Positions 4,104 to 60,493 of a stretch of DNA of 64,000 bases are shown here, piece after piece. The position numbers were made by a program, and so were the translations under genes. Source of the stretch: a virus; IMG/VR virus record IMGVR_UViG_3300025881_000008, positions 1 to 64,000 of that record. One strand, written 5' to 3'. A model generated the notes under the pieces. That model was not told the DNA's origin, ran no database searches, and saw nothing but the letters and a program-made list of their open reading frames with translations. Each line of letters opens with the position of its first letter. Within the stretch, counting starts at the first letter, position 1.

Positions 4104-4104
4104 T

Positions 4105-4326: not shown

Positions 4327-4342
4327 AATATTTTGGTATGTT

Positions 4343-4362
4343 AATAATATATTATATTTATC
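4343..4362 (-). promoter_or_regulatory. Promoter-like GATAAATATAATA element
   Basis: After the tube-gene terminator the coding strand reads AGATAAATATAATATATT about 17-35 bases before the ATG at 4326. A near-identical sequence precedes the lone plus-strand gene at 16050. It resembles the T4 late -10 element TATAAATA and may be a variant of the GATATATA motif. Confidence 0.4.
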
Positions 4363-4366
4363 TTGC

Positions 4367-4402
4367 AAAAAATAAGAAGATAACTTGCGTTACCTTCTTA
4401 TT
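4367..4402 (-). terminator. Rho-independent terminator after tail tube gene
   Basis: On the minus strand AATAAGAAG and CTTCTTATT form a stem extended by GTAAC/GTTAT-type pairing around a short loop, followed by six T residues. It starts 15 bases after the tube gene stop at 4418. Confidence 0.75.
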
Positions 4403-4417
4403 AAGAGTGTGTGTTTA

Positions 4418-4975: not shown

Positions 4976-4994
4976 AATTTGTATGTGTTTATTT

Positions 4995-5002
4995 TATATA
5001 TC
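4995..5002 (-). promoter_or_regulatory. Late-promoter-like motif GATATATA
   Basis: GATATATAAAATAAA on the coding strand, 20 bases before the tail tube ATG at 4975. Confidence 0.6.
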
Positions 5003-5010
5003 TAATTTTG

Positions 5011-17244: not shown

Positions 17245-18339
17245 TTACATTAAAGCTTTGAATCTTTCAGCAATTGACATACCTTCGTATATTTTTGCCT
17301 TTGTAGATTCTTCTACTTCCTCTTCAGGTGCTTCTTCAGCTTCTTCAGCTTCTTCAACTTCTTCAACTTCTTCACCTTCTTCTTCAACTACTACTTCTGC
17401 AGCTTCTTCGCCTTCTACTTTATCAGCAGCTTCGACGTCTTCTTCTTTTTCTTCTTCAGCTTCAACGTTAACTTCAACTTCAACTTCAACTTCTTCGGCT
17501 TCTTCATTAACTATTGATGAAAGTCTACCAGAACCATCTAGTTCTGCGTTTTCATTATAGCCTAATTGTGCATCAGATTTTGCCTTAGCTTCTGCATCAT
17601 CAGCATCTTGTTCTGCTTGTGATTTTTCTTTAGGTTCTTGTTTTGCTGCGTAATCTTTTAATGATTTTTCATCGTTAGCTACTCTATCTTCTAAGGTATC
17701 GATCTCTAATTTAAGAGCTTTTGCTTCTTCACCAGAAGTAGCCTTCATTACCACTTTTGCGGCTTGTAATTTTGATTTATTTTTACCAATACTAACAACT
17801 TTACCTAGGCCTTCATCTCCTTTTGATAATTCAGACATTCTATCGGTAATAGCATCGACTTGATCTTTAAGAGCTTTGTTTTTAGCTAAGTTAGCCTGTT
17901 TAAGTACTTCGGCTGTTTTAGGATTAGGATCTTCTTTAGAAGCTTCTTTTTTCTTAGCGTAATCAACATCGTTAATAGATTGTTGAATCAGCGCCTTTTG
18001 ATATTGTTTTAAATTTTTAGAAATCTTCATGTATTTAATAGGAGATTTAATAATATCCATAATACCTTCGTTAAGCAGTGTAATGTTAGTTAAATCAAAT
18101 AACTCTTCATAAAGTTCATCAATTTCTAAACTAATAGAAGTTGATTCTGAAACCCTGTCAGATAATTCAATTAAATTATTAAGAATAGTATCAACATCTC
18201 TAATTACTTCAGTTCTAATAGTTTCAGCGGGTGTGGATTGGTCGATGGCTACATCGGTATGTGATGTGGCGTCACCTGACTCGTTTAACAAGTCTCTAGT
18301 AAACTCTTCGTAGAGCTTTAGTTTTGATTTTAATTGCAT
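17245..18339 (-). CDS. Acidic prohead core-like protein downstream of capsid gene
   Basis: 364 residues. The N-terminus (Leu-Tyr-Glu-Glu-Phe-Thr-Arg-Asp-Leu-Leu-Asn-Glu-Ser) resembles the tag shared by presumed internal head proteins. The middle is coiled-coil-like. Residues about 260-345 are an extreme Glu/Val/Ala run, and the end is Met-Ser-Ile-Ala-Glu-Arg-Phe-Lys-Ala-Leu-Met. This end resembles that of the protease-scaffold protein (Met-Ala-Asp-Ala-Phe-Lys-Lys-Arg-Phe). Together with its place directly after the capsid gene it looks like a scaffold/core component that is proteolysed by gp21. It has its own promoter motif. No family recognised. Confidence 0.6.
   Translation of the reverse strand: MQLKSKLKLYEEFTRDLLNESGDATSHTDVAIDQSTPAETIRTEVIRDVDTILNNLIELSDRVSESTSISLEIDELYEELFDLTNITLLNEGIMDIIKSPIKYMKISKNLKQYQKALIQQSINDVDYAKKKEASKEDPNPKTAEVLKQANLAKNKALKDQVDAITDRMSELSKGDEGLGKVVSIGKNKSKLQAAKVVMKATSGEEAKALKLEIDTLEDRVANDEKSLKDYAAKQEPKEKSQAEQDADDAEAKAKSDAQLGYNENAELDGSGRLSSIVNEEAEEVEVEVEVNVEAEEEKEEDVEAADKVEGEEAAEVVVEEEGEEVEEVEEAEEAEEAPEEEVEESTKAKIYEGMSIAERFKALM
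17310..17500. repeat. CTTCTTCAR-type low-complexity coding repeat
   Basis: Imperfect repeats of CTTCTTCAG/CTTCTTCAA encode the Glu/Val/Ala-rich acidic tail of the core-like protein. Slippage here would change tail length in whole codons. Confidence 0.7.
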
Positions 18340-18467: not shown

Positions 18468-19895
18468 TTACAATTGTAAACCATCAACGTTGAATTTTTG
18501 GTATTGTGTACCTGGGTGGAAACCAGCTTCAACTAGAGCGTATCTAGATTTAACTGCTACTTTAGGAGCCATAGTTCCTTCAGCAATAGTTTGAACTGAT
18601 TCAGCCATTAAGTAAGGCATGAATACTAATCCAGCGCCGTTACCGTCACCTTTTCTACCTACTAGGACTTCGTGCTTACCGTTAACACCTTCGAATGCTA
18701 AGTTTGGATCAGTGTAAACATTGATACCAGCAACTGAACCTACTGGGTAGATTGCACCTGCAACTTGGTTGAATGTGTTAGCCATTGGGTTTGGTACGAA
18801 ACCAGCAACACCTTGTAAAGCTGAAGCAACTTTTGCATCAACTACAGCGAAGTTACCAGCACCTCTTCTACCTCTGTTAGCGATTAAGTTAGCAGCAGCC
18901 AATACGTGAGTAAGGATTCTTCTGTTAACATCACCGTAAGTGTTACCACCTAAAGAGTAGTCTAGAACAACCTCTGAAATACCGCCTTCAGCGATAGATC
19001 TCATCTTAGTTAAGATGTGGTTGTTGATAGATTGAGTTAATTCGTTAGTTAATACTGCTTCTACTTGAGCTACAGCGTCAACACCGAATTGCTTAAGATC
19101 TTGTACTTGCTCTCTTGTAACTGCAGCAGCAACTTGGAAAGTTTCAGCAGCAACACTTTTAGAGAATAAAGAAAGACCCATAACTTTGTCAGCAGTTCTT
19201 TCACCAGCTTCTCTTGCAAGAGGCTTACCGTTAGCATCAGCACCTGAGAATGCAGGAATATGATCTTCTAATGCAGCAACTAATTCTACAGTTGCACCAG
19301 CACCTGTTTTAGCAGCTTCTAAGTCTTCAGCAACGTTTGCTTCAACTAATGCACCTACTACTTTAAAGATTGATTTACCATCAATTCTTGAAGCACCTAC
19401 GAATTCGTATGCAGCGCTAGCTGCAGTAGCTGCAATACTTACAACACCCGCTAATGCTTTATCAGCTTTGATGTAAGTTGGAGCAGTACCACCTAAGGCA
19501 ACAGTTCCACCTTCATAAGTAAAGTCTAAGTAAGACAATAATCCCATTGGTCCAGCCATTGGTACTACTGGTACTAAGTCAAGACCGATAGTTTGAGCAG
19601 CAACTTGCATTGCCAAAGGCAATAATGTTGGAGCTTTGTCACCTGATCCAGTAGCTGCACCTGCTGCACCGTTAGCCGGAGCACCTGCAGGGAAAGATAC
19701 TGCACCCATACCTGTTAAGTTCATTGGGCCAGGGTTGTTAGATAAAGACATGATGTTCGCGTCTTCATAAAGTTTATGGTTGTGACAGTAAGTCGACATC
19801 CATGCTAATTTGCTAGATTCGTTGATACCTGTAGCTTCCGAAATGATCGGTGCCCATGTATTCTTGATCTCAGCTTCATTTAATAAATTTGCCAT
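18468..19895 (-). CDS. 23: Major capsid protein (gp23)
   Basis: 475 residues from the ATG at 19895; an in-frame TTG 19 codons upstream is rejected because the ATG follows a typical A-rich leader. The first 15 residues (Leu-Leu-Asn-Glu-Ala-Glu-Ile...Trp-Ala-Pro-Ile) resemble the gp23 N-terminal segment removed in maturation. A Gly/Ala linker with Asn-Leu-Thr-Gly-Met-Gly and Gly-Ser-Gly-Asp (about 57-85) marks the probable gp21 cleavage zone. The body has the HK97-like T4 pattern, ending Gly-Thr-Gln-Tyr. It forms the capsid hexamers. Shorter than T4 gp23 (521). The gene is flanked by scaffold and core-like genes, with a promoter motif and strong terminator. Confidence 0.92.
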   Translation of the reverse strand: MANLLNEAEIKNTWAPIISEATGINESSKLAWMSTYCHNHKLYEDANIMSLSNNPGPMNLTGMGAVSFPAGAPANGAAGAATGSGDKAPTLLPLAMQVAAQTIGLDLVPVVPMAGPMGLLSYLDFTYEGGTVALGGTAPTYIKADKALAGVVSIAATAASAAYEFVGASRIDGKSIFKVVGALVEANVAEDLEAAKTGAGATVELVAALEDHIPAFSGADANGKPLAREAGERTADKVMGLSLFSKSVAAETFQVAAAVTREQVQDLKQFGVDAVAQVEAVLTNELTQSINNHILTKMRSIAEGGISEVVLDYSLGGNTYGDVNRRILTHVLAAANLIANRGRRGAGNFAVVDAKVASALQGVAGFVPNPMANTFNQVAGAIYPVGSVAGINVYTDPNLAFEGVNGKHEVLVGRKGDGNGAGLVFMPYLMAESVQTIAEGTMAPKVAVKSRYALVEAGFHPGTQYQKFNVDGLQL

Positions 19896-19993
19896 TTTTA
19901 ATGATCGTTTTTTTTGTTTGTTTAATTGTTTAGTTAAAAACTCGACATTCAATGGGCTTTCTGCTTCTGTCGCCCTTATCGTCGAATGTTATT

Positions 19994-20015: not shown

Positions 20016-21992
20016 TTATTTGTTAAATCTCTTTTTGAATGCATCTGCCATACCAGTCATATCATATCCTAAAGTTGATTTTGGCTCTTCAGTTTTTGAT
20101 TCACTAACCATTGCAACTTTTTCCATTTCAACTCTAGTATCTCTTAGATCTCTAGTTTGCCAGAAATTAGCAACTTGGTATTCGGTATTCAATGTGTGGT
20201 ATCTTGCTTGTGCAACAATTTGATTTTGCTTAGCTTCAGATAGATTAGTCCATGCTTCAGTATATTCTGCTGGCATAAGAGCAATAAATGCAGGCTGTGA
20301 TCCAGCGCTTTCAACTATAAGTTGTGCATTGTTCATTAAAGATACAATTTCAGACTCTGTCATAAAACCTCTTTTAGAAACTGTGTTTCTAACTTCAGTC
20401 TTAGCAGATTCAGTCAATGCATTGTACTTTTCTCTTGTTGCAGAAGAAACAACTCTAAAGAAAGATGGTGATTCATTTTCTTTTTTAGTTGCATTTTCAA
20501 CTAACTTATCTAATTTAGAAGAGATTTCTGATTTGTAAGCCTCTAAAGGATCTAATGCTCCTTCTTCACCTTCTGCTTCTTCTTCGCCTTCGCCTGCTTC
20601 AGCAGCTTCAACTTCGTCTTCGATTTCTGAATCAGATGTTTTAGCATCAGATTTTAGATCTTCAGCTTCTTCACCAGCTTCTTCGCCAGCAACATCACCT
20701 TCGGCTGAGTTATCTCCAGCTTCAACTTCTTCGCCTTCGATTTCTTCAACATCTTTACCTGCTTTTTCACCGTCAGCTGCTACTGCACCTTCTTCTGAAT
20801 TATCACCGATGTTTTCGATTTCTTCTGTATCATCAGCTTCATCGGCCTCTTTTGCAGGATCTTCTTCTTCAGTAACAACTGTTTCGTTTAAAGATTCTGC
20901 AATGTATTCAGCGTATTCAGAAACTGATTGTAAGTTTTCTTTTAAGTATTCAACATACTCTAATAAAGTAGTATGTGATGTAGCACCTTCATTGTGGGCT
21001 TCTGCTAAATAGTTAGCAAAGTCTTTAACTTTAGAAACTGCTTCAGCAACGTGCTCCGTATAAGAGATACCTTGATCTAATTTTTCAGCCAATGACTCAG
21101 AGTAAGAGATACCTTGATCTGCTTTTTCAGCAACGTGCTCTGTGTATTGAATAGACTCGTCTAATTTAGTAGCAACATAATCAACGTAGTCGGTTAATTT
21201 ATTAACGCTTTCTACAATATGATCATTGTGCTCCTTTAGATTGTCTACAGTGCTGTCTTCTAAAGCCTCTTCATTTTTGGCTTCGATAGACTCTTTTAGT
21301 GTCTTGATTTCATTCGCTAAATACTCAGAGTACTTATTGAAATCTTCAGATTTTACAAATTCTGCCATGTTTTTATTTTCTTTTATTTGTGTGTTTGTGT
21401 TTTCGATTGTGTCGATAGTTTCTAATGAAGTTTCGGGTTTTTTGTTAATTTCATAAATTGACAAAAGACCATCATTCTCATATCCATAAGATTCGTTAAC
21501 TCTCTTTAACTCAGCGTTTTCAAAACCTGGGTCAGCAACTAAATCATATGTGAATAATTGTTTAATTTTAACTTGGCCATTAGTTTCAACAACTCCGGCA
21601 GCTCTAGAAGAAATTTGTAAAGGAACTCCAGCATCAACTAATGCTTTAGCCTGACGACCAGCATCAGTATCTAATAATTTGATTCTACCTCTAACTTCTT
21701 TAGTTTCTTTATCATAAGTTAAATCCTCAATAACGTGAGATACATTCTTTAATGAAATGTCGAATTGTGCAGGGTGATCTAATTCACCTAAAAGCTTAGA
21801 AGCCTTTATTTTAGCCTGTAATGCCTCAATTTGAGGAACATATTCAGCTTCCGTATAGATACGGTTGTTTCTGTTTTTTTGATCGATTTGACCAAAAACA
21901 CCTTCAAGTACATAGTCTTTATTCTCTGACGTAGTAACATTCAGGGCAGAAGAAGACATCTCGACGATTAGTAAATCGTTAATATTGCTCAT
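20016..21992 (-). CDS. 21: Prohead protease fused to scaffold (gp21-gp22)
   Basis: 658 residues combine two T4 functions. Residues 1-170 are the prohead serine protease: Gly-Glu-Leu-Asp-His-Pro (His73) and Ile-Ser-Ser-Arg-Ala-Ala-Gly (Ser128/129), with Gly-Val-Phe-Gly and Arg-Asn-Asn-Arg-Ile-Tyr. From about 209 onward it is a scaffold: long coiled coils, three repeats of Asp-Gln-Gly-Ile-Ser-Tyr-type heptads (about 270-320), an acidic Glu/Ala/Asp run (380-470), a helical C-terminus ending Lys-Lys-Arg-Phe-Asn-Lys. Met209 at 21368 follows a strongly A-rich stretch and may start a separate scaffold chain. In T4 these are genes 21 and 22. Confidence 0.85.
   Translation of the reverse strand: MSNINDLLIVEMSSSALNVTTSENKDYVLEGVFGQIDQKNRNNRIYTEAEYVPQIEALQAKIKASKLLGELDHPAQFDISLKNVSHVIEDLTYDKETKEVRGRIKLLDTDAGRQAKALVDAGVPLQISSRAAGVVETNGQVKIKQLFTYDLVADPGFENAELKRVNESYGYENDGLLSIYEINKKPETSLETIDTIENTNTQIKENKNMAEFVKSEDFNKYSEYLANEIKTLKESIEAKNEEALEDSTVDNLKEHNDHIVESVNKLTDYVDYVATKLDESIQYTEHVAEKADQGISYSESLAEKLDQGISYTEHVAEAVSKVKDFANYLAEAHNEGATSHTTLLEYVEYLKENLQSVSEYAEYIAESLNETVVTEEEDPAKEADEADDTEEIENIGDNSEEGAVAADGEKAGKDVEEIEGEEVEAGDNSAEGDVAGEEAGEEAEDLKSDAKTSDSEIEDEVEAAEAGEGEEEAEGEEGALDPLEAYKSEISSKLDKLVENATKKENESPSFFRVVSSATREKYNALTESAKTEVRNTVSKRGFMTESEIVSLMNNAQLIVESAGSQPAFIALMPAEYTEAWTNLSEAKQNQIVAQARYHTLNTEYQVANFWQTRDLRDTRVEMEKVAMVSESKTEEPKSTLGYDMTGMADAFKKRFNK
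21368..21390 (-). promoter_or_regulatory. Likely internal translation start for free scaffold
   Basis: The coding strand reads AAATAAAAGAAAATAAAAAC immediately before the in-frame ATG at 21368. This matches the A-rich leaders before real starts in this genome. The site lies exactly at the protease/scaffold junction. Confidence 0.5.
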
Positions 21993-22048: not shown

Positions 22049-22387
22049 TTATAATCCAGCGAGCGGGTCATCGCCTCCTTCGGCATCTCCTTCGTCTTCT
22101 TTTTCAGCTTCTTTTTCAGCTTCTGCATCTTCAGCGGATTTATCTAGATAGTATCCTACTAAAATATCCATTTCTCCTTCAGCAAACGCAGCTTCGCCAT
22201 ATTCGGTATAGAAGTATTGTTTGAATTCATCTTCTGTCTTAGCAGCAGTAATTGCGCCTAAGATTTCGGCAGATTTAACTTCTGGACCTGAATCCAATTT
22301 TAAATCATCTACAAATATCTTTGACTCTTCTCCTGCTCTTAACGCATCTTCAGAGATGAAATCTTCAAATGTTTTTATAATTTTCAT
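22049..22387 (-). CDS. Acidic prohead core protein with capsid-targeting-like N-terminus
   Basis: 112 residues between portal and protease genes, the T4 gene 67/68 position. It begins Met-Lys-Ile-Ile-Lys-Thr-Phe-Glu-Asp-Phe-Ile-Ser-Glu, the tag shared with many proteins at 46-54 kb. It ends in a very acidic tail (Ala-Glu-Lys-Glu-Asp-Glu-Gly-Asp) then Asp-Pro-Leu-Ala-Gly-Leu. T4 gp67 is likewise small with an acidic tail and is a prohead core component cut by gp21. The promoter motif lies only five bases from the ATG, so any transcript from it would be leaderless or start inside the gene. Confidence 0.65.
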   Translation of the reverse strand: MKIIKTFEDFISEDALRAGEESKIFVDDLKLDSGPEVKSAEILGAITAAKTEDEFKQYFYTEYGEAAFAEGEMDILVGYYLDKSAEDAEAEKEAEKEDEGDAEGGDDPLAGL

Positions 22388-22414: not shown

Positions 22415-24007
22415 TTACATTGCGAATGGATCCTCGGGCTCTGGAGCTTCAGCATCCTTTTTCTTTACTTTAGATTTAGCCGCTTCATTAGCTCTAATCT
22501 CATCATCAGAAAGCTTAAGATATTTCTTAACTAAGTATTCCTGATCAAAGTAGTATTCCTCTTCCATAGTCTCTTGGTTGGTTGTCATCAATGAATCTCT
22601 CATTGTACCAATAAAGTCTAATCTCTTCTCCATTAATTCCATGTCTTTCAATTCTGAGAATACATTTTCTTCATTAAATCTTAATGCAATCTGTGATTTG
22701 AATTGTGGATCGTTTGTAAATTCTGGGTATTTAAGACACATTTGAATAAAAATAGGCTTAGCTAAAATTTCCATAAAGATAGATCTTAAACGCTTGATAA
22801 ATTTACCAAACTTAATCTCATCTCTAATCATACCATCAGCTGCTAGGTTAAAGTCTCCTCCACCATCTTCGTATAAAAATCTTGAGTAAGGAATTTTTGA
22901 AACGTGTTTTAATTTATCTGAGAAGTATTTAAGTGCTTCTGTATCCGAAAGATCTGGTCCTTCACTATTAAGAGTTTCAATTTCTGGTGATTCACCGTCT
23001 TTAGAAGGTAACCAGTACTCTTTAGAGAATTGCAACATTGGTTTACCATCTGTAGCCAAAGTACCTGATTCCCAATCAAAATCAACTGACTCTTTATATG
23101 AGTTCATTAACTGTGAAAGCGATTGTTTTGCTCTGGTCTTAGATTTACCACCAACTGGGATAACAAACTTCATTCTAAATGAAGCGTTAGTTACAGCCCA
23201 AATAACTCTGGTGTGTTCCATAATTCTTAACAAGTTAAATGCTCTTGTTAATCTCTCAATATATGAAACTCTTGATGCTGTAGTTATTGAAGAGTACGAA
23301 ATGTAAATGATCTGTGAATCGTAAAGCTTTCTTTCTTTAACTGGATCATCCTTATATTGTACCCAAACCTTTTTACCATCATCGTGATTATAACCGGGAA
23401 TAAGTGTAATAGGATCTAATTCTTTAAAACCAATTACCTCTTTTTGGTCGGGGGAATAAATTATTTCAAATGCAAGATAACCATCAATTAAGAATTTTCT
23501 AAAGAAGTACCATGCTGATTGATCAGAGTTAAAACCAAAGTAGTGATATATCTGTCTAAAGTATTTGTTAAGGTCTTTTTCAACTGCATCTGAAACATCT
23601 AATCCTAGAATTTCTGGATAACAGAAAAAGTTTTTCTCATCATATACAATAGTCTCATCACAAAGAATGTCTAGGATGTCTTCGATCTCATCATTAAGTG
23701 AAAACTTTCTAAGTTCATCTCTTTTACCAGCATATGATTGGTCGAAAAATGGAATATTAGATCTTAAATTAGTGTCTGTCATTGACATTGCTGCAAATGC
23801 ACCATAAATGTCATCGCTATCAACCCCAAATGGGTTCATTTGACCATAACCTATTTCGGCCTCCATCGGACCAATCGCCTGTGATTGTCTTAAGACTAGA
23901 TCATCATAACGCATACCAAATGAAGACAAAGACTTAAGAGCATTTGAAATGCTAAAAGGTCTTGATCCGTTGCTCAATGGTCCGTTTCTATCGGTAAATC
24001 CTGCCAT
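22415..24007 (-). CDS. 20: Portal vertex protein (gp20)
   Basis: 530 residues, close to T4 gp20 (524). Recognised from Phe-Ser-Leu-Asn-Asp-Glu-Ile-Glu-Asp-Ile-Leu-Asp and Cys-Asp-Glu-Thr-Ile-Val near 105-120, Trp-Tyr-Phe-Phe-Arg-Lys-Phe-Leu-Ile-Asp-Gly-Tyr, Glu-Leu-Asp-Pro-Ile-Thr-Leu-Ile-Pro-Gly and Ile-Pro-Tyr-Ser-Arg-Phe-Leu-Tyr-Glu, all typical of T4-like portals. Twelve copies form the ring through which DNA enters and leaves. The C-terminus is Lys/Glu-rich and ends Asp-Pro-Phe-Ala-Met. It is followed by the core and protease genes as in T4. Confidence 0.93.
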   Translation of the reverse strand: MAGFTDRNGPLSNGSRPFSISNALKSLSSFGMRYDDLVLRQSQAIGPMEAEIGYGQMNPFGVDSDDIYGAFAAMSMTDTNLRSNIPFFDQSYAGKRDELRKFSLNDEIEDILDILCDETIVYDEKNFFCYPEILGLDVSDAVEKDLNKYFRQIYHYFGFNSDQSAWYFFRKFLIDGYLAFEIIYSPDQKEVIGFKELDPITLIPGYNHDDGKKVWVQYKDDPVKERKLYDSQIIYISYSSITTASRVSYIERLTRAFNLLRIMEHTRVIWAVTNASFRMKFVIPVGGKSKTRAKQSLSQLMNSYKESVDFDWESGTLATDGKPMLQFSKEYWLPSKDGESPEIETLNSEGPDLSDTEALKYFSDKLKHVSKIPYSRFLYEDGGGDFNLAADGMIRDEIKFGKFIKRLRSIFMEILAKPIFIQMCLKYPEFTNDPQFKSQIALRFNEENVFSELKDMELMEKRLDFIGTMRDSLMTTNQETMEEEYYFDQEYLVKKYLKLSDDEIRANEAAKSKVKKKDAEAPEPEDPFAM

Positions 24008-46272: not shown

Positions 46273-47451
46273 CTAGTAAGATAATCTATCTTCTATCTGT
46301 TTTCTTTTAGTTTTTAAAGCATCAATGCGATCTTCGATTGCATTTAGTTCACCGCCATATCTGTTAGCATCTTCATCAGACCATTCAGTACCCCTTTCGC
46401 CAGCCTCTGATTCCATATCTTTATACAATTGAGATCTTTCTGAAGTTAAATCTTTAAGTTCATTTGCAATATCCCAAAGTTGATCTTCTAATACATCCCT
46501 TTGTTTACCATAAACTCTTTTCTTTTTGTCCAGCGCTGCTTGAGCTTTTTTAGCTGCCATTGTTGATTTCATTGCTCTCATTGCCACTAGAACTGGATCA
46601 TTAATATCTGTTGCCTCTTCAATAATTTCATTTGATTCGTGTACCAGAGATCTTTGTACTTCAGCGATATATTTTTGGAGTGACTTACCATAATAGCTTT
46701 CTAGTCCCTCAACTGCAGTTTTAGCACTGTTATTATAAATCTCATCAGCCGCCTTTCTACCCATTTTTGAATTAAGTACACCTAATGCCCCTGTTTCGGT
46801 TAGTTTATACTTTTTTTGAAGATCTTTTACGCCTTGATCAAAAAGAGTCTTAGCTTTCTTTTCATTAAAGCTAGTTTCTATTTGACCATAAAAACCATAT
46901 GACATATTAATATCATCTTGTGAGTATGCCTCGAACGTTTTGATATATTTCATTTTTTTTCTTTTCTTTTTATATTCTTCTTCGGCATCACCAGAACCTG
47001 CTGGAACATCACCTGATCCAACTGTACCATTACCTGGTAAAACTACTGGACCCATACCCGTTAAATTAGCAGGGGTTATGTTTTCGTCTACTGTAATTCC
47101 TCTCTTCTTTAAGATCTTTTCAATTTCTTGATAAGCTTTCTTATAATCGGATTTAGTATAGTGCATTCCTTTAGCATAATTAGCATAACCGTCTAATGCT
47201 CCGTTATACATTCCTAGTAATTCTTCATCTGACATACTATCATTAAATACAAACGGTCCAATAAATGCTTCATCTACCGTCTCTGGTAAACCAGTATGCT
47301 TTGTACTTGCAAAATCTTTCAACTGCTTAAGAGTCATATTATCTGCTAATTCTTTTATTTCAGCACTAACTTCATCAGATTTTAACTCACCCTTTTTATA
47401 AGCGTACGCTTGTCCCATTAATCTTTGTTGTGATTTACTTGTACTTGGCAT
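46273..47451 (-). CDS. Two-part protein: DUF3008-like N-terminus plus internal tagged coiled coil
   Basis: 392 residues. Residues 1-60 (Pro-Ser-Thr-Ser-Lys-Ser-Gln-Gln-Arg-Leu-Met-Gly, Lys-His-Thr-Gly-Leu-Pro-Glu) match a small phage family known as DUF3008. Residues 128-156 hold Asn-Leu-Thr-Gly-Met-Gly and two Gly-Ser-Gly-Asp, a segment also seen in the capsid protein, then a Lys-rich stretch. Met167 (46953) follows eight A residues and begins Lys-Tyr-Ile-Lys-Thr-Phe-Glu-Ala-Tyr, the tag that starts other genes here. The rest is a coiled coil. Either a fusion or two overlapping products. Terminator 31 bases downstream. Confidence 0.65.
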   Translation of the reverse strand: MPSTSKSQQRLMGQAYAYKKGELKSDEVSAEIKELADNMTLKQLKDFASTKHTGLPETVDEAFIGPFVFNDSMSDEELLGMYNGALDGYANYAKGMHYTKSDYKKAYQEIEKILKKRGITVDENITPANLTGMGPVVLPGNGTVGSGDVPAGSGDAEEEYKKKRKKMKYIKTFEAYSQDDINMSYGFYGQIETSFNEKKAKTLFDQGVKDLQKKYKLTETGALGVLNSKMGRKAADEIYNNSAKTAVEGLESYYGKSLQKYIAEVQRSLVHESNEIIEEATDINDPVLVAMRAMKSTMAAKKAQAALDKKKRVYGKQRDVLEDQLWDIANELKDLTSERSQLYKDMESEAGERGTEWSDEDANRYGGELNAIEDRIDALKTKRKQIEDRLSY

Positions 47452-47508
47452 AATTACTTCCTAGCGTATTGTTTTAATAGTATGTTTCATAATTGTATTG
47501 TTTTTTTA

Positions 47509-47919
47509 TTAATAGTTTTTTGCCAGTTTTTTCCAGTTAGACAATGTTTCTAATCCTAATAATATTTCTTCCATTCTTCCCAATGCATCATTGAAGTACG
47601 CATAACGCCTCTTTCCATCTACACCATCATGATTATTAATGACGTAGTATGATATGCTGCGCCCGTTTTTATTCAAGTAATCTAATGCGTGGTGATCTTC
47701 ATATCCAAATTTCTTTGTTAGAACATCGAATGTTTCTATGAATAAGAGCTTCATGTCAGGGACCTTCATATCGTTATATTTATAGTGTTTAAATGTACCA
47801 ATAAAAGATGATACTAATTTTTGTTCTACGTCTTTCCAGTCAAACTGTTCTTCTGATCCAAATCTCTTAGGAATACTTTGTTCGTTTAAAAATTGTTCAA
47901 ATAATTGTATGTGTTTCAT
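47509..47919 (-). CDS. Small protein with capsid-targeting-like N-terminus
   Basis: 136 residues from the ATG at 47919; an in-frame TTG 17 codons upstream is rejected, because the ATG restores the shared tag Met-Lys-His-Ile-Gln-Leu-Phe-Glu-Gln-Phe-Leu-Asn-Glu. After the tag comes a compact alpha/beta domain with Tyr-Gly/Tyr-Glu-Asp-His-His-Ala and Gly-Arg-Ser-Ile-Ser-Tyr-Tyr-Val. By analogy with T4 internal proteins the tag may be cut off by the prohead protease after Asn-Glu. Function after delivery unknown. Confidence 0.65.
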   Translation of the reverse strand: MKHIQLFEQFLNEQSIPKRFGSEEQFDWKDVEQKLVSSFIGTFKHYKYNDMKVPDMKLLFIETFDVLTKKFGYEDHHALDYLNKNGRSISYYVINNHDGVDGKRRYAYFNDALGRMEEILLGLETLSNWKKLAKNY

Positions 47920-47987
47920 AGTTTTAATTCTATAATTAAGCAGAGTACCATGGTTTAATCCAATACTCAAAGAATACTCTTTTGAAT

Positions 47988-49553
47988 TTACCAGACATAA
48001 TCAAATGATTCAATCTGATTGATTCTATCTTTAATTGACTTAGCGTAGTTCTTAGCTTCTCTTTCGTAGTAAGACTCTCTGTCGCCATATTGTTTTTCTG
48101 ACTCTTCAGCCTGCCCAATATAACTAACATATCTATTATAATCGTCTAAGATGCTTGACATATGATTAGAAGCATCTCTTAATCTAGCTTCGCTACCATT
48201 TGCTTTACGACCAATGATAATATCTTCATAACGTCCTTTTTCACCTTTAGCTAAACCGTCTTTAATTTGAGTAGTTAGAGATTCAATAGCGTCTGCAACC
48301 ATTTTGTCTAATGGTAAAGAAGCCGCTTTATTAGCTAAAATTTGGTGGTATCTGTCCATGTTCTCTTTCTTGAAGTCTTTATCTGACTTAAATGCGATTG
48401 CACCTTTTTTAGCATCAGCCCTTGAGGCTCTTTCAGCTTCAGCAGAATATTTCTGTCTTAAAAGTGCCATGTTTAAAACAATAGCTCTATCTGCAACTTC
48501 GGCAATTCTTTTTACGTTATAAAGACCTGTTCCGTCCCATCCTTTGTACTTTTTAGAAATACCAACTGAATCAGACTCGCTACCTTTAGTTAATTTATAT
48601 TGTTTATCATATTTACCCCAAGATTTAGTGTAAAATGCATTTTCACCAGAAGCAACCGCTAATAAGTAGCCTTCGCCTGGGATTGTTTTATGATCATACC
48701 ATGCATCACTAGGTGCATATGGATTTTCTTTTGGTACATCAGACACATAGAAAATAATTGAATCCACTTGCTTATTTTTATAAGCAGTCTCTGGATTAAC
48801 TACTAAAATATCTTCGTCTTCAACAAGGTCCATTTTAATTTTAGCTGTACCATAAAATGCTTTCGCTAAAGTAGCGTCGAATTTAGCGCCTTTAGTTCTA
48901 AATAAACTAGCAAGCATACTAGACTTAAATGCTTCGGTAACTAATTCTTTTGATTTATTCGTGGTGTTTAGTGAATTTACAAAGTCACCAAAACTTTCAA
49001 ATACAAAGTTTGTTTTCATGTTATTATTTGTTTTATTTTCTTTTACTAATTTTGGATTCTTATTAAGAAGTTCTTCCATGTCTAATTCTGACAAGGCCAT
49101 AAAACTATCTTCACCATATTTTTTAGCTAGTTTATCAGCTAACTTGATATCTATTACTCTTGCCACTTGACTGTAATCTAATGTTGCAACGCCAAACTCT
49201 CCAAAAATCTCTTCAGCTCTTGCGTTTGCAATTTTAAAGGGAGTTGCTTTTTCATTAATATCTATAGTAGTTGTTAATTCATTTAGAATTTTCTTACCCG
49301 TTTTAGAAAGTGTGATACCCTCTTCACTAACATTAAAATAAGTAGCGTTTCTTTTAATCCATCTCGTACTATCAACTGTCATCTCTTTTAAAATAGTATC
49401 AAACTCTTCTTTAGTAAGTTTACCATCTTTAATAGCTTCTAAAACTTTATTTCTAATTCTAGCAGCCTTGCCAACTTTAACAGCTGGGTAGTTTTCAGTA
49501 TATTTTCTTTTGACAGTGATGTGTCTTTCTTCTATTGGTTGATTATTATCCAT
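47988..49553 (-). CDS. Two-part protein with internal tagged start
   Basis: 521 residues. The N-terminal 178 are a basic, helical domain (His-Ile-Thr-Val-Lys-Arg-Lys-Tyr, Ile-Lys-Arg-Asn-Ala) that I cannot name. Met179 at 49019 follows an A-rich stretch and begins Lys-Thr-Asn-Phe-Val-Phe-Glu-Ser-Phe-Gly-Asp-Phe, close to the tag of the neighbours. The C-terminal 340 residues include an alpha/beta part with Pro-Gly-Glu-Gly-Tyr and a long Ala/Lys/Arg coiled coil. As with the gene at 46273, one continuous frame could give a long product and a tagged shorter one. Confidence 0.65.
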   Translation of the reverse strand: MDNNQPIEERHITVKRKYTENYPAVKVGKAARIRNKVLEAIKDGKLTKEEFDTILKEMTVDSTRWIKRNATYFNVSEEGITLSKTGKKILNELTTTIDINEKATPFKIANARAEEIFGEFGVATLDYSQVARVIDIKLADKLAKKYGEDSFMALSELDMEELLNKNPKLVKENKTNNNMKTNFVFESFGDFVNSLNTTNKSKELVTEAFKSSMLASLFRTKGAKFDATLAKAFYGTAKIKMDLVEDEDILVVNPETAYKNKQVDSIIFYVSDVPKENPYAPSDAWYDHKTIPGEGYLLAVASGENAFYTKSWGKYDKQYKLTKGSESDSVGISKKYKGWDGTGLYNVKRIAEVADRAIVLNMALLRQKYSAEAERASRADAKKGAIAFKSDKDFKKENMDRYHQILANKAASLPLDKMVADAIESLTTQIKDGLAKGEKGRYEDIIIGRKANGSEARLRDASNHMSSILDDYNRYVSYIGQAEESEKQYGDRESYYEREAKNYAKSIKDRINQIESFDYVW

Positions 49554-49564
49554 TTTTTGATATA

Positions 49565-49975
49565 TTATTTCTTAATCTTTGCTAAATGACCGTTTGTTTC
49601 TTCATACTGGAATGAGAACTTAGACTTTGCATAAAGAGTTCCCATTGAGAACGATACTAATACACCATCTGGTTTTTTCATAGCAGTGTTGTATGCGTCA
49701 GTTGCAGAGGCCTCGTCATCAAATACACCGATGTATTGTTTTGAGCCAGCAGAACCAATTGTATATCCTGCTTCTAATCTAATTCTTTGACCATAAAAAT
49801 CTGCAGAATTATGGGCAAATACTAAGTATTTAGTCTCACCTTTTTCTGGTAGATTATCGGCATGCTCACCGAATTCAGTTCTAGAATTATAGTGATAAGA
49901 CCCAAATTGAATAGATTCATCTACTGATATGTTATTGGCTTCTGTAAAACTTTCAAATGATTTTATATTCTTCAT
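49565..49975 (-). CDS. Small tagged internal-protein candidate
   Basis: 136 residues. Begins Met-Lys-Asn-Ile-Lys-Ser-Phe-Glu-Ser-Phe-Thr-Glu-Ala, the clearest match to the tag consensus and very like the T4 internal-protein leader (Met-Lys-Thr-Tyr-Gln-Glu-Phe-Ile-Ala-Glu). The remainder is beta-rich with Val-Phe-Ala-His-Asn-Ser and Phe-Ser-Met-Gly-Thr-Leu-Tyr-Ala. An AATATATAAATAA promoter-like sequence lies 21 bases upstream and forms the stop of the preceding gene. Function unknown. Confidence 0.65.
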   Translation of the reverse strand: MKNIKSFESFTEANNISVDESIQFGSYHYNSRTEFGEHADNLPEKGETKYLVFAHNSADFYGQRIRLEAGYTIGSAGSKQYIGVFDDEASATDAYNTAMKKPDGVLVSFSMGTLYAKSKFSFQYEETNGHLAKIKK

Positions 49976-49994
49976 TTTGGTGTATTATGTTTAT

Positions 49995-51842
49995 TTATAT
50001 ATTCTTAATAAATTGATCGAAGGTCATAACAGATTTTGACTCTGCCAAAACACCCATACTGTCTTCTAATTTAGACTTTAATTCACCATACATGTTGTGT
50101 ATCTCTTTAGGTGTTAGTTTCTTAAATAGCTTCTCATCACCATCTAGCATTGCATTTCTAACTTGCGTAGCTGAAATATTTTTACCAGTTCTTGGAATTT
50201 CAAAAAGACCAAAATCAGTCCTTACACCCAAGTCTTCTCTATATTCTGGTTTATCAACTTGATATGAATACGTTTTAAGTCTATCACTTCCAGTGCCCCA
50301 TAATACGGGTTCATAACCATCGGCTCTCATTGTATTAAACATTAGGTCAATTGCTCCCCTGTCAATAATATAAACCTTCTCAATTGGATATTTACCTTTT
50401 AGTTGGTTTAACATTTGAAGTTGAGTTTCTTCGTCGTATGGTCTAGAAAAAGCATCCTCTTTCTTTTTAGTTTTTGATTTAACTAGAAAAACAACTACCG
50501 GATAACCGTTTTGTTTATTAATAGTCTCAACTACTTTAGCATGGCCCAGCGTAAATGGTTGGAATCTACCAACGAACATGTTGACTGGTGTTTTACCTTG
50601 TTCTGGGTATTTAACTGTAAGCCCCTCTAAAACTGGACTAACTTCATGTTGAAGTTTTTGGTTAACTAAATATGTTTTAAATGTCATAACGTCATTTTCA
50701 TTTGTTTTTGCCATTACAATGCCTTCTATAGTTTCAACTATTTCATTGATTTGGTTCATTAAGTCAGTGTTAATAATGTCTGTTTCTCTAGTTCTCTTCT
50801 TTCTAAAACTACCTAACGCAATTTTAAATAACTCTGCCAAAACTTTATTTTGAATTAATGATATTGTTTTTTCATCTTTAATAAATGTACGATTAAGATC
50901 AAATCCTTTGTTGTCTGAGAAATCAGCTGAATCAAAATTAGCTCCAATATATTTAGAGGCATTCTTTTCAATGTATGCATTAAATATATTTGAGATTAAT
51001 TCAATATATCTAAGGTCTGACTCTTCTTCTGATATTTCAATAGCTAATAAATCATAGTTAGTAATAAATTCTACTAGATCTAAAATTGAAATCTGATACA
51101 TGTCAGATGGACTTCTTTCCTCTTGTGGTTTTCTATCAAATCTCTCTAGCTTAAAACTCTTAATGTTTTTACCTTCGTAGAAATTGATTATTAACCCATC
51201 AATATCTTTATCTAGTGTAAAGTTTAACGCAGGAGTATTAAGGCCATTATTAAATATATTGTATATTGTTCTAGTAAATGATTGTGATTCAAACTTAGTT
51301 ATGAAGTCTTGATCAGATGTGTTTAGAAGCGATATAAGGTCGTCCTTTTGATTAGATTGTAGTTTACCTTCAAATACAATTGGCGGTCTCTGAACTCCTA
51401 ATTTATCCGCCCATTTGTTTAGAACCTGTGGATCTCTAATTACTTTTTTAATTTGAGTAGGATCATTTGGGTTTAATACTTGTATATGTGTTAGGATTAA
51501 GTGGTTTTTAGGTAGTACATCATATTCAATGCTTACCGTTTTATTATCCAACATGTAGTCAAAGCCGAATTTCCAATCTAATGGCATCTCTTCGGTAACT
51601 TCTTTTAATATTGTTGAAAAATATTTAATACCATTTTCATAGTATTTAACCATGGTTCTATCTACTCTATCCATCTGGTATTTAGAACCGCTTTTATAAT
51701 AGTTAAAGCCTGTATCGGTTCTTTTAACATGAAATGAAGATGCTTGAATCTTTTCAGATACAACGCATGTCAGGTCCAACATAGCCAAAAAGTCATTGGT
51801 ATTAGTTGATTCAAAATATGTTCTTAAGTTTTGTAAAGCCAT
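49995..51842 (-). CDS. Fusion of unknown domain with NMN-adenylyltransferase-type nucleotidyltransferase
   Basis: 615 residues. The N-terminal 400 are unrecognised, starting Met-Ala-Leu-Gln-Asn-Leu-Arg-Thr-Tyr-Phe-Glu-Ser. From about residue 420 a nucleotidyltransferase domain follows: Phe-Val-Gly-Arg-Phe-Gln-Pro-Phe-Thr-Leu-Gly-His (HxGH site), Trp-Gly-Thr-Gly-Ser-Asp-Arg, and Ile-Ser-Ala-Thr-Gln-Val-Arg (ISxTxxR). This superfamily joins NMN, nicotinate mononucleotide, FMN or CMP-type substrates to a nucleotide. NAD synthesis from NMN is the leading possibility. T4-like phage KVP40 also has NMNAT enzymes. It lies in the tagged-protein module; whether it is packaged is open. Confidence 0.72.
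   Translation of the reverse strand: MALQNLRTYFESTNTNDFLAMLDLTCVVSEKIQASSFHVKRTDTGFNYYKSGSKYQMDRVDRTMVKYYENGIKYFSTILKEVTEEMPLDWKFGFDYMLDNKTVSIEYDVLPKNHLILTHIQVLNPNDPTQIKKVIRDPQVLNKWADKLGVQRPPIVFEGKLQSNQKDDLISLLNTSDQDFITKFESQSFTRTIYNIFNNGLNTPALNFTLDKDIDGLIINFYEGKNIKSFKLERFDRKPQEERSPSDMYQISILDLVEFITNYDLLAIEISEEESDLRYIELISNIFNAYIEKNASKYIGANFDSADFSDNKGFDLNRTFIKDEKTISLIQNKVLAELFKIALGSFRKKRTRETDIINTDLMNQINEIVETIEGIVMAKTNENDVMTFKTYLVNQKLQHEVSPVLEGLTVKYPEQGKTPVNMFVGRFQPFTLGHAKVVETINKQNGYPVVVFLVKSKTKKKEDAFSRPYDEETQLQMLNQLKGKYPIEKVYIIDRGAIDLMFNTMRADGYEPVLWGTGSDRLKTYSYQVDKPEYREDLGVRTDFGLFEIPRTGKNISATQVRNAMLDGDEKLFKKLTPKEIHNMYGELKSKLEDSMGVLAESKSVMTFDQFIKNI
49996..50003 (-). promoter_or_regulatory. Variant late-promoter-like motif AATATATAAATA
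   Basis: One mismatch to GATATATA, 21 bases before the ATG at 49975. It supplies the Asn-Ile-stop of the nucleotidyltransferase gene. Confidence 0.45.
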
Positions 51843-51852
51843 GTTGTGTTGT

Positions 51853-53139
51853 TTATCTTCCGTACTTAATAATACCCATAAGCTGGTTAATTGCAGCGAA
51901 TGTTCCTGTTAACTTAAATGTCTTGCCTTTATAAACAAAGACAATCCCTTCAGTTGGCATAATTGAATCAATTCCACCTATTCTTTCTAATCTAGCTAAT
52001 TCAGCTTCAACTTTTTGTATCTGTTCGATTGATCCACCTTTTTTAATTTTATCAGCTTCGGTTCTAATTTGATTATGTAATCTTTGCATTTCAGCATCTG
52101 GTGACGCAGCAACAAAATTAGAAGCGTTTTTTAGAATAATAGAACCTAGTTCTAAGAATAGATCTTCAAACGGTCTAATATTCTCTTTGTATTTCTTAGC
52201 AACATCTTCTTTGTCAAATTTCTTAATAATAGCTGCCTTGTCTTTTCCAAGTTCTTTGTCTAAAGATCTTAAATTAAGGGTCTTTTTATCTCCATATGCC
52301 CATCTTAATAATAAACCTTCTTTAAAGTCTTGTGTTAAATCTGGGAAATTTGAATCTATAGTTTCCCTCCACCACATTTCATGATAGCGGCTAACTTCAT
52401 CAGCGTCTGTCAAATTATATTTGTCGCGGAGCGCTTCAACCTTCTTAATAAATTTATTTTTATTTTCTTCAAAATTAAGGTCCTTACCTAATTTAATTAT
52501 TTGAGGTGGAATTATAGTAAATGTTTTACCGACATTTGCTTTAACAGACTCTAAGGCTTTTGCTATTACTGATGCAGGTTTATTATCTTCACCAATTATA
52601 TTACCATTACCATCTGTCTTTTTTATACCATGAAATTGAATAATATCTCTATCATAATAGATTACATTTGGATTTTTAGAATAGATCAATTCCATGTTCA
52701 TCCAATTGAGTCCATTTTCAAATACTTCTTGTTGAACTTTAGCTGGTAATTTAATCAACGCATTGGCTAAATCTTCTGCAGCAAACTTAAAAGTTTCTTC
52801 AACCATTGCAGATGCATGTCCATCAAATTTTTGCTTAAACGTTTGAAGATCCATTGGTGTTATAAGTTCACCCTTGTTACGAGCAAATTTAACCTCACCA
52901 TCTTGAATAGTTGCAAATACATTTTGTCCATCTGTTTTTTCAGTAGCGTCCTCTTCAAAATTAAGTTCACCACTTAAACCAGCTTCTATAAGAGCTTTGA
53001 AATCTGTAAATGTTAATGACTTATCATCAAATGGATGTGCCATATGACCGGCAGCCCCGCCTTCTAAAATTAAAGCTTCTTTTATATTTGAATGTAATTT
53101 TTCAGTTACAAACTGTTCAAAATTATGGTAGATCTTCAT
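51853..53139 (-). CDS. Tagged nucleic-acid-ligase-like nucleotidyltransferase
   Basis: 428 residues. The start Met-Lys-Ile-Tyr-His-Asn-Phe-Glu-Gln-Phe-Val-Thr-Glu is the shared tag, then Glu-Gly-Gly-Ala-Ala-Gly-His-Met-Ala-His-Pro-Phe-Asp, typical of a phage family I know as DUF6267. Ligase-type motifs: Glu-Lys-Thr-Asp-Gly-Gln-Asn (Lys68, motif I), Phe-Ala-Arg-Asn-Lys-Gly, Met-Glu-Leu-Ile (about 148), Glu-Gly-Ile-Val-Phe (about 397, motif IV) and Lys-Gly-Lys-Thr-Phe-Lys (motif V). It probably adenylates itself and seals RNA or DNA, or caps another target. Upstream of the NMNAT-like gene by 10 bases, so the two are expressed together. Confidence 0.7.
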   Translation of the reverse strand: MKIYHNFEQFVTEKLHSNIKEALILEGGAAGHMAHPFDDKSLTFTDFKALIEAGLSGELNFEEDATEKTDGQNVFATIQDGEVKFARNKGELITPMDLQTFKQKFDGHASAMVEETFKFAAEDLANALIKLPAKVQQEVFENGLNWMNMELIYSKNPNVIYYDRDIIQFHGIKKTDGNGNIIGEDNKPASVIAKALESVKANVGKTFTIIPPQIIKLGKDLNFEENKNKFIKKVEALRDKYNLTDADEVSRYHEMWWRETIDSNFPDLTQDFKEGLLLRWAYGDKKTLNLRSLDKELGKDKAAIIKKFDKEDVAKKYKENIRPFEDLFLELGSIILKNASNFVAASPDAEMQRLHNQIRTEADKIKKGGSIEQIQKVEAELARLERIGGIDSIMPTEGIVFVYKGKTFKLTGTFAAINQLMGIIKYGR

Positions 53140-53163
53140 AATGTATATATTGTAATTTAATTA

Positions 53164-54891
53164 TTAGCCTAATGAGCTAGTCAGCATACCGACTGCTACG
53201 CCATAATCACCCTTAGATTTAGCTAAGATGCCATCAATTACTTTTTTTGCTTTAGCCTCATCAAATTCTTCACCAAATGCTTTTTGTAAAACCGTGGTTG
53301 CATATTCGTTAAATTCTTCATCAGATTTAACTTCAGCTTCGTTTACTTTAGATTCAACAATTGCTTTAACATCTTTTAGTTTGATGCTTTCGCTGTCAAT
53401 GTAATCCATTGCCATACCTACTAAATCATCTGAATCTAGATCGTACTTGTCTTCTGCATAATATTCATCGTCCATTAATAAATCATCACAAATATCTCTT
53501 AAAGTATCTGCATCTTGGTCATAAAGAAAATCTTCAATTTTGTTTAATTCAGACTTAGATAGTTTTTCGTTAACTACTGATTCTTCGATATATTCAGCTA
53601 GATCTGCATCAGCCCATCCTAATTCTTCATCAGCTAATACTGCTTCAAGATCTTTTCTCTTACCTTGCATTGTGATAACTGGAGTTCCGCCACCTGGACC
53701 GTCCATCTTTTTATCAATAATAGTAACCTTGTGTTTCTTTAAGAATTTTAAAAAGTCTTTATCATCTGGATCCATTGCATCCATTTCAACAGTTGCTTCA
53801 CATAAAATATCAGCGTTTTCAATAACAATACTTTCGTTAAAGAATCCATTAAATGCGTTCAATAAAGATTGACCCGCTGCCTCTTGTTTAATTTGCTCTA
53901 AGTAAAGTGCAGTACCTTCAACGATACCGATACCTGACCATCCTGCTGCGTTAGCAATATCAGAATAGTATTTGTCTAGTACTCTCTTAACTGTAGTTGC
54001 ACCGATCTTAATAAAGTGATTACCTAAACCTGGCATTTTAACTTCAAAGGTACTAATAGAACCTTTAATATTTTTAGAGATTGCAAATCCTTCTCTTGAG
54101 AAGTTAGCATCTTCCATTGCCATTTCAAATAAGTACTTAATACATCCTAATACTGATTCATTTGACATTGCACCCAAGTCAGTTAGTTTTTTTGCAAACA
54201 AGTTATTGTAAACTGTAACAACTTTCTTAGCATCTCTCTTGTATTTTACCTGAATCGCCTCATTTACTGAAACAGAAACAGATTCAAATGCTGGATATAA
54301 GTCATCATAGCCATTGCCATAAATATCAGCCATTAACCATTGCTTGTTAGCTTCGTCCCAAAGGTAAACGAATTCTGCGCTGCTATTGGTAGCTACATCT
54401 CTCAAATATTTAGAAACGTTAGCGATTGAACCCTTTGAAGGTGTCATTGCATTTTTATCTCCGTAAAAATTCATCTTATCAATACTATCTTCTAAACCTG
54501 AACAATCTCCCTTTGCAATAACAGCATCAACTGCTTTTGGGTTTTTAAAAGATTTCTTAATAATAGGTAACATGTTTTCTGGATAAGAATCGTAATGTGT
54601 ATAAATTGAAGTGATATTACCTTTCTTATCTATTTTACCAAATTGACCTCTTGTGCCCTCTTCGATAAGTGTAACTGCTTCGTTAATTTCAGCACCTCTT
54701 AATCTATTAAAAAATTCTGATCTTTGCTCTTCTGTCAATTCTTTGATTGAAGCTACTTTAAATTCAGATAAGAGTGCTTTAAAAGCCTCTGCTTCATTAG
54801 TTCTTTTTACGATCTTTTCTTCTTCTAAGTGTCTAGTTTGAGAAATCTTTGCTTCGGTAGCAAATTGATCAAATGATTTTAACTTTTGCAT
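53164..54891 (-). CDS. Large tagged internal-protein candidate
   Basis: 575 residues. Begins Met-Gln-Lys-Leu-Lys-Ser-Phe-Asp-Gln-Phe-Ala-Thr-Glu-Ala. Several further Asn-Glu-Ala or Cys-Glu-Ala sites (Ile-Asn-Glu-Ala-Val, Val-Asn-Glu-Ala-Ile, Leu-Cys-Glu-Ala-Thr, Val-Asn-Glu-Ala-Glu) divide the chain into blocks and look like repeats of the prohead protease recognition type (hydrophobic-x-Glu). Middle: Gly-Asp-Cys-Ser-Gly, Trp-Ser-Gly-Ile-Gly-Ile-Val-Glu. C-terminus: very acidic helices. It has its own promoter motif. I recognise no enzyme family; a processed internal head protein is inference. Confidence 0.6.
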   Translation of the reverse strand: MQKLKSFDQFATEAKISQTRHLEEEKIVKRTNEAEAFKALLSEFKVASIKELTEEQRSEFFNRLRGAEINEAVTLIEEGTRGQFGKIDKKGNITSIYTHYDSYPENMLPIIKKSFKNPKAVDAVIAKGDCSGLEDSIDKMNFYGDKNAMTPSKGSIANVSKYLRDVATNSSAEFVYLWDEANKQWLMADIYGNGYDDLYPAFESVSVSVNEAIQVKYKRDAKKVVTVYNNLFAKKLTDLGAMSNESVLGCIKYLFEMAMEDANFSREGFAISKNIKGSISTFEVKMPGLGNHFIKIGATTVKRVLDKYYSDIANAAGWSGIGIVEGTALYLEQIKQEAAGQSLLNAFNGFFNESIVIENADILCEATVEMDAMDPDDKDFLKFLKKHKVTIIDKKMDGPGGGTPVITMQGKRKDLEAVLADEELGWADADLAEYIEESVVNEKLSKSELNKIEDFLYDQDADTLRDICDDLLMDDEYYAEDKYDLDSDDLVGMAMDYIDSESIKLKDVKAIVESKVNEAEVKSDEEFNEYATTVLQKAFGEEFDEAKAKKVIDGILAKSKGDYGVAVGMLTSSLG

Positions 54892-60124: not shown

Positions 60125-60493
60125 TTAGATTCTTTTACCAAGACTAGCACCTAGTGCAGCGCCAACAAGTCTTGAGGTTAATAAATCATAGAAAATACCT
60201 TTTTCAATACCTAATACTTTAGCAATCATCTTACCAACTGATTTACCTAAAGCGAAACCAGTAAGACCACCAATAATTGAACCAAAGAAACCTTCATTTG
60301 TAATTTCTTCATTAAGCCTTTCAATATCAAAGGTACCATCTTCATTTTTATATTCTAATGCGAATGATTCTAGGGCGGCATCAATCTTAGTCTCTAACTC
60401 AGGTGTCCATTCTTCTTGTAGACCCTCGTTAATAAGTTTGATATCCTGTTCTGTGACAGCATTTTCAACTAAGTATGTATTAAATGTTTTCAT
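60125..60493 (-). CDS. Glycine-zipper membrane protein with tag-like N-terminus
   Basis: 122 residues. Begins Met-Lys-Thr-Phe-Asn-Thr-Tyr-Leu-Val-Glu-Asn-Ala, tag-like. After an acidic region and Ile-Thr-Asn-Glu-Gly-Phe-Phe-Gly the C-terminal 50 residues carry Gly-Gly-Leu-Thr-Gly-Phe-Ala-Leu-Gly-Lys-Ser-Val-Gly and Gly-Ala-Ala-Leu-Gly-Ala-Ser-Leu-Gly, glycine-zipper helices that can form membrane pores. If cut after Thr-Asn-Glu by the protease, the free zipper segment would be released. A packaged membrane-active protein is one idea; function is unknown. The motif lies five bases before the ATG. Confidence 0.6.
   Translation of the reverse strand: MKTFNTYLVENAVTEQDIKLINEGLQEEWTPELETKIDAALESFALEYKNEDGTFDIERLNEEITNEGFFGSIIGGLTGFALGKSVGKMIAKVLGIEKGIFYDLLTSRLVGAALGASLGKRI

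Follow-up and report, generated by a model that had tools for sequence, protein, structure and literature searches.

Why should a series of mostly unrelated proteins encoded by a single virus begin with the same short peptide? This question is raised by a stretch of 64 kilobases (kb) of DNA (positions 1 to 64,000 of IMG/VR record IMGVR_UViG_3300025881_000008; hereafter, the window), part of a 104,074-base contig of an uncultured T4-like phage of bacteria. In it, the genes starting at 22387, 47919, 49975, 53139 and 54891 open with MKx[IVL]KxFExF[ILV]xE (hereafter, the tag), and at least seven proteins of this virus begin with such a sequence. The shared peptide is very probably a T4-type capsid targeting sequence, in a new variant. 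Regarding its consequences, prohead targeting is well supported, the packaging of the tagged enzymes into mature virions is likely, and the injection of tagged proteins is plausible. Since related viruses, the largest having 735,000 bases, bear the tag on many unrelated proteins, the particles of these viruses probably deliver protein cargo along with the DNA.

A common peptide at gene starts

A first-pass annotation of the window had listed the five starts mentioned above, looser versions at 18339 and 60493, and internal copies at 46953 and 49019. All these starts and peptides are present, and their consensus is M-K-x-[IVL]-[KQ]-x-[FY]-[EDN]-x-[FY]-[ILVAT]-x-E. The start at 18339 is a longer form of the tag. 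The one at 60493 was wrongly described as loose: MKTFNTYLVE is in the exact T4 register, with aromatic residues at 4 and 7 and Glu at 10. The tagged genes of the window are as follows (aa: amino acids; ORF: open reading frame):

60125..60493 (-): 122-aa glycine-zipper-like protein with the T4-register tag MKTFNTYLVE at 60464-60493, conserved across the group
53164..54891 (-): 575-aa protein with N-terminal tag MQKLKSFDQFATE at 54853-54891; residues 79-190 form a phrog_1987 domain
51853..53139 (-): RNA-ligase-like nucleotidyltransferase with N-terminal tag MKIYHNFEQFVTE at 53101-53139
49995..51842 (-): protein whose C-terminal domain is cytidylyltransferase-like; it lacks an N-terminal tag and has a probable C-terminal one, MTFDQFIKNI at 49998-50027, after LAE/S
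49565..49975 (-): 136-aa protein with N-terminal tag MKNIKSFESFTE at 49940-49975
47988..49553 (-): 521-aa fusion ORF with internal tag MKTNFVFESFGDF at 48981-49019
47509..47919 (-): 136-aa protein with N-terminal tag MKHIQLFEQFLNE at 47881-47919; the listed ORF begins upstream at a TTG
46273..47451 (-): 392-aa ORF with a DUF3008 domain (47278-47442), a GMGPVVLP..GSGD segment plus lysine-rich linker (46954-47058) and internal tag MKYIKTFEAYSQDD at 46912-46953
22049..22387 (-): 112-aa acidic-tailed protein with N-terminal tag MKIIKTFEDFISE at 22349-22387, in the portal-protease interval, which is the position of T4 gp67/68
17245..18339 (-): 364-aa acidic protein adjoining the capsid gene, with long-spacer tag MQLKSKLKLYEEFTRD at 18292-18339; orthologues have MKLKSKLKLYEQFVNE and MKSAIKLYESFLKE

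Long contigs of relatives were gathered, their genes were called, and a position-specific motif model was trained on these uncultured phages. When trained without the window genome, the model gives at least 8 bits to five gene starts, versus a mean of 0.02 (maximum 1) in shuffled N-termini. A second scan puts the starts at 47919, 53139, 22387, 54891, 60493 and 49975 above 6.6 bits, the 95% genome-wide null. With leave-one-genome-out training, 5, 15, 8, 11, 15 and 14 tagged starts are found per genome, as opposed to at most 0.08 expected; a count over the six genomes with the same type of model, partly in sample, gives 75 tagged starts, versus a mean of 0.4 after shuffling of the N-termini. The strict core of the tag is 12 to 28 times commoner at positions 4-13 than past residue 60 in the six main genomes. 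At the DNA level, a degenerate pattern for MKx[ILVM][KQ]x[FY][EDNK]x[FY] matches four times in the window genome and never in its reversed-pattern control; in the six main genomes it has 4 to 11 matches per genome, and every match lies on the strand that dominates in genes. Replication genes also have tag-like peptides at internal Met codons, which were set aside as chance. The shared start pattern is, then, real, as first described. The check suggested at that time, an alignment of tags across relatives, leaves only MKxxKxFExFxNE in common among 86 tagged, mostly unrelated proteins, with Glu13 present in at least 90% of them.

A shared start might also be a trace of common descent or of AT-rich composition (that is, paralogues or shared A/T-rich starts). 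Near strains do have near-identical tags, and some tandem tagged genes look paralogous (e.g., 95512-96889 in the relative G002). Nevertheless, the proteins are unrelated outside the tag, composition-preserving shuffles yield almost no tags, and the DNA pattern read in reverse has no match in 18 records. Besides, the start of the ligase-like family (51853-53139) evolves fast save at functional positions: [FY]xx[FY][ILV]xE is retained by each of the 26 complete orthologues, even at ~30% identity, while the start otherwise varies, for the most part, freely. Descent or composition is thus a very improbable explanation.

Correspondence with the capsid targeting sequence of T4

In the T4 sequence MKT-YQEFIAE, residues 4 and 7 are concerned with targeting, and residues 8 and 10 with processing (PMC9026906). 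The aromatic-x-x-Phe-hydrophobic-x-Glu half of the tag has the T4 spacing, with [FY]xx[FY] at 4/7 in 60493 and at 7/10 in the others. As a blind control, 263 T4 ORFs were scored with a model trained without T4, and the top four were gp61.1, ipIII, ipII and ipI. The first of these begins with MKTFKEFIKED (MKTFKEFIKEDMVAG; gene 61.1 at 18966-19130 of the T4 stretch) and scores above the known internal proteins; its start predicts that gp61.1 is a packaged internal protein. Among the window proteins, general scans gave no PHROG or Pfam match to IPI, IPII or IPIII, with no direct comparison made.

The end of the tag is consistent with a cleavage site. The T4 protease gp21 cleaves after L/I-x-E, and 43 of 47 strict tags (a set chosen with Glu required) have I, L or V at P3. 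Per site, [LIV][NST]E has a frequency of 0.031 in the capsid propeptide and 0.030 in tagged N-termini; the scaffold-like segment of the protease ORF has 0.017, proteins as a whole 0.0037, and the mature capsid protein 0.0008. Capsid propeptides show an enrichment of about eight-fold in cleavage tripeptides, and the mature capsid protein a depletion.

The machinery that such a signal would need is encoded nearby. The head genes, all on the minus strand, follow the T4 order: portal, small gene, gp21-type protease, gp23-type capsid protein and acidic protein. The small gene and the acidic protein (22049-22387 and 17245-18339) were given above; the others are:

22415..24007 (-): gp20-type portal protein
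20016..21992 (-): prohead protease of the gp21 type, whose long, acidic C-terminal part resembles a scaffold; presumed to cut the tagged proteins and to be their docking partner
18468..19952 (-): gp23-type major capsid protein, with a propeptide rich in [LI]xE sites and a GMGAVSFP..GSGD arm at 19638-19712

The protease ORF matches the phrog_207 head maturation protease (E 2.4e-45) and carries the acidic extension. Protease and acidic scaffold-like region form a single 658-residue ORF, not a separate gp21 and gp22, and five relatives have counterparts of about this length. In six out of six genomes, the tag is found on the portal-protease gene; since T4 gp67 and gp68 lack the tag, this gene lends support by position, not by identity.

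A link with virions comes from the cyanophages. T4-GC190, a cyanophage cytidylyltransferase distantly related to the window enzyme 49995-51842, was detected by mass spectrometry in purified S-SM1 virions (PMC3037559). Its gene in S-SM1 begins with MKKFSAFLNEA, which is exactly in the T4 register, and no other convincing tagged start turned up in the S-SM1 record; the P-TIM68 orthologue begins with MKSFTSFFTEA.

The tag could, instead, be some other localisation signal (e.g., for the replication site or the membrane) resembling that of T4 by convergence. The amphipathic pattern is short, and replication genes of T4-like type lie near the head module and adjoin the 46-55 kb cluster. On the other hand, polymerase, helicase, primase, clamp loader and UvsX bear no tag; the cleavage Glu, for which such a signal has no use, stands at a fixed spacing and is conserved more than any other residue; ipI-ipIII were recovered blind; and the gene in the gp67/68 position is tagged. 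Localisation elsewhere is, hence, improbable. With regard to those replication genes, the gp43-type DNA polymerase is encoded in two parts by separate genes (34833-36041 and 39725-41128), with nrdA and nrdB in between.

In short, the annotated claim of a T4-like tag for capsid targeting and cleavage is now strongly supported by: (i) the T4 register; (ii) the blind T4 control; (iii) the gene in the gp67/68 position; (iv) the cleavage tripeptides; and (v) one tagged cyanophage protein found in virions. Several points, apart from the partly in-sample count, weigh against it. The S-SM1 virion link comes from one protein. Regarding the T4 control, the top-ranked gp61.1 is a predicted, not a known, packaged protein; the scan of T4 ORFs found no tag on the core proteins gp67, gp68, gp21 and gp22; and ipI, at 3.3 bits, is little above the median best match in shuffles (2.8). 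The low score of ipI is due to a spacer that parts its targeting segment from the cleavage Glu, an arrangement also found in the present tag set (MKHVKLFEAF-AST-VNE). Finally, the internal copies at 46953 and 49019 fall below the genome-wide null on their own (5.7 and 3.0 bits) and have no Glu at the expected place (SQDD at 46953); they are backed by orthologues instead.

Fate of the tagged proteins and content of the cluster

Prohead targeting would be compatible with two fates. The chief alternative to delivery is that most tagged proteins are core or size-determining parts which are cut up and lost, or kept in the head, rather than injected effectors. The tagged 22387 (the portal-protease gene) and 18339 (beside the capsid gene) resemble core parts, and the T4 protease gp21 degrades gp22, gp67 and gp68. 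Some tagged proteins, 22387 above all, may indeed belong to the core and be degraded instead of delivered. For the majority, this fate is unlikely, albeit worthy of consideration. Many tagged proteins are enzymes or enzyme-domain fusions (ligases, tRNA nucleotidyltransferase, GNATs, ATP-grasp), and T4-GC190 is present in mature virions. Moreover, [LI]xE sites are not enriched in the bodies of tagged proteins (0.0108 versus 0.0128 overall), and, therefore, these proteins are not built for shredding.

For delivered proteins, the following sequence of events can be proposed: (i) during head assembly, the aromatic-x-x-Phe part would dock the tagged protein on the prohead-core scaffold; (ii) the gp21-type protease would cut after the Glu of [ILV]-x-E, freeing the protein within the maturing head; and (iii) the freed protein would be packaged with the DNA and probably exit with it at infection. 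Internal tags at domain junctions may let the protease release the downstream domain, and the C-terminal copy on 49995-51842 might act in mirror image.

The first-pass annotation had placed the boundary of the tagged set at 46-55 kb, which is too narrow: tags occur genome-wide in relatives, and this is one cluster within a genome-wide tagged set. The segment 46273-54891 comprises seven ORFs: four with N-terminal tags, two with internal tags at domain junctions and one (49995-51842) with a probable C-terminal copy. The cluster would supply an RNA-ligase-like enzyme, a cytidylyltransferase-like enzyme and several further proteins, and its role would most plausibly be early nucleic-acid end repair or host take-over.

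The ligase label given to 51853-53139 has gained backing from conserved motifs (KTDG, within EKTDGQ; NMEL; EGIVF; KLTG) that match KxDG and the downstream nucleotidyltransferase motifs, and from a fold search whose best PDB matches are RNA ligases, albeit weak (E 8e-3, TM about 0.2). A PDB sequence search with this protein gave no match. Its structure model is unconfident only at residues 1-32. In cyanophages, a KWDG-containing protein directly adjoins the tagged cytidylyltransferase (S-SM1, 3896-6020 of the stretch), and PHROG 455 spans both; these neighbours resemble the ligase-like/nucleotidyltransferase pair of the window. The KWDG neighbour has no detectable homology with the ligase-like protein.

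The enzyme 49995-51842, previously taken as an untagged member of the cassette, ends in ...LAE/SKSVMTFDQFIKNI, a probable C-terminal copy. All complete orthologues keep this TFxxF end, which suggests a mirror-image tag; when a general C-terminal tag was sought genome-wide, only this family was found to have one. A PDB sequence search with this nucleotidyltransferase yielded nothing useful.

In two relatives (G002 and G012), the region of 47988-49553 beyond the tag is encoded by a gene of its own with an N-terminal tag, and most fusions keep the junction Met. It is possible that the downstream part arises from internal initiation or from protease release. A fold search with the 49019 domain found no match. 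The domain at residues 79-190 of 53164-54891 is also present, at ~30% identity, in Streptococcus temperate phages as a hypothetical protein.

Within the window genome, GMGxVxxP..GSGD occurs only in the capsid protein (19638-19712, the presumed start of the mature N-arm) and in the DUF3008 ORF (46954-47058), in the latter directly upstream of the internal tag. The same two-protein pair is found in G002, G006 and G009, and in phage PTm1 the second copy lies in ORF-299, in the portal-protease interval. As a guess from this resemblance, the copy on the DUF3008 ORF could be a shell-docking mimic. A broader scheme, which is tentative and rather doubtful, can be built on it: T4-like phages of up to 735 kb might have a general system of protein export via the virion, with a cleavable aromatic-x-x-Phe tag (N-terminal, inside a polyprotein or mirrored at the C-terminus) and, as a second signal, the capsid N-arm copy on a DUF3008 adapter upstream of the tag, docking cargo to scaffold and shell; the cargo would include ligases, nucleotidyltransferases and acetyltransferases.

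Across relatives, the tagged proteins include DNA ligase, tRNA nucleotidyltransferase, GNAT acetyltransferases, ATP-grasp enzymes and a kinase, and PADLOC gave only marginal scattered matches over 86 tagged proteins. In consequence, early nucleic-acid repair or host modification is a more likely role for the cargo than that of known anti-defence proteins. If so, nucleic-acid end-repair enzymes would be delivered ahead of phage gene expression. More generally, the T4 signal becomes a sequence rule by which candidate virion cargo can be read from genomes, those of uncultured huge phages included; this rule predicts many cargo proteins per genome, and the tags are offered for packaging foreign proteins into phage heads.

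Spread of the tag and comparison with known systems

According to portal and capsid protein, the closest named relatives of the window phage are the uncultured huge phages LR756500, LR756502, LR756504 and LR756501, the Lak megaphages, PAU and Tenacibaculum phages. As named relatives infect Bacteroidota, the host is likely to belong to this group.

In huge phages, the DNA pattern has 14 (462 kb), 21 (642 kb) and 8 (636 kb) matches at gene starts, and those read out all open ORFs without an upstream ATG. In 400 kb of LR756501 (735 kb), searched without the model, 36 of 542 ORFs start with aromatic-x-x-aromatic-hydrophobic-x-acid, versus 3.9 expected, often containing FINE or FLNE. Lak-A1 shows no clear FxxF tag (8 ORFs versus 2.8 in shuffles, maximum 7). 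Several Lak proteins begin with MNK[NQ]IKxLLESLFDD or a like sequence, which may be a start tag specific to Lak or the mark of a family of paralogues.

A literature search, with subscription journals mostly outside its reach, found no description of such tags beyond T4-type, P1 and phiKZ-type phages. In Sphingomonas phage PAU, about 18 genes begin with MKT[LI][ST][KQ]L[YF]E, many then with KLNEA. As in the present case, this is a short start tag, found mostly around portal, protease and scaffold, and on three of the four genes that the record labels as internal capsid protein; its core, however, is different and lineage-specific. The signal of P1 DarB (PMC9024508) is likewise N-terminal, sends a large protein into the head and serves host take-over, but the Dar proteins have no shared consensus and no similarity to the present tag, and P1 heads assemble without a separate scaffold. 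The propeptides of phiKZ/SPN3US (PMC5694885) are cut by a gp21-related protease at x-x-E, there are ejection proteins in the head, and two paralogues have an identical start; nevertheless, these propeptides usually exceed 100 residues and lack an FxxF[ILV]xE tag.

The closest likeness is to the tag of T4 IPI, IPII and IPIII (Mullaney and Black, 1996; reviewed in PMC9026906): both have an M-K start and an equally spaced aromatic-x-x-Phe and hydrophobic-x-Glu, both are borne by unrelated proteins, and both coexist with a gp21-type protease. But while T4 has few tagged genes, these phages of 100-735 kb have tens of them, with large enzymes as cargo, a consensus that usually has three more residues (MKxIKxFExFxNE), copies inside proteins and, in one family, a copy at the C-terminus.

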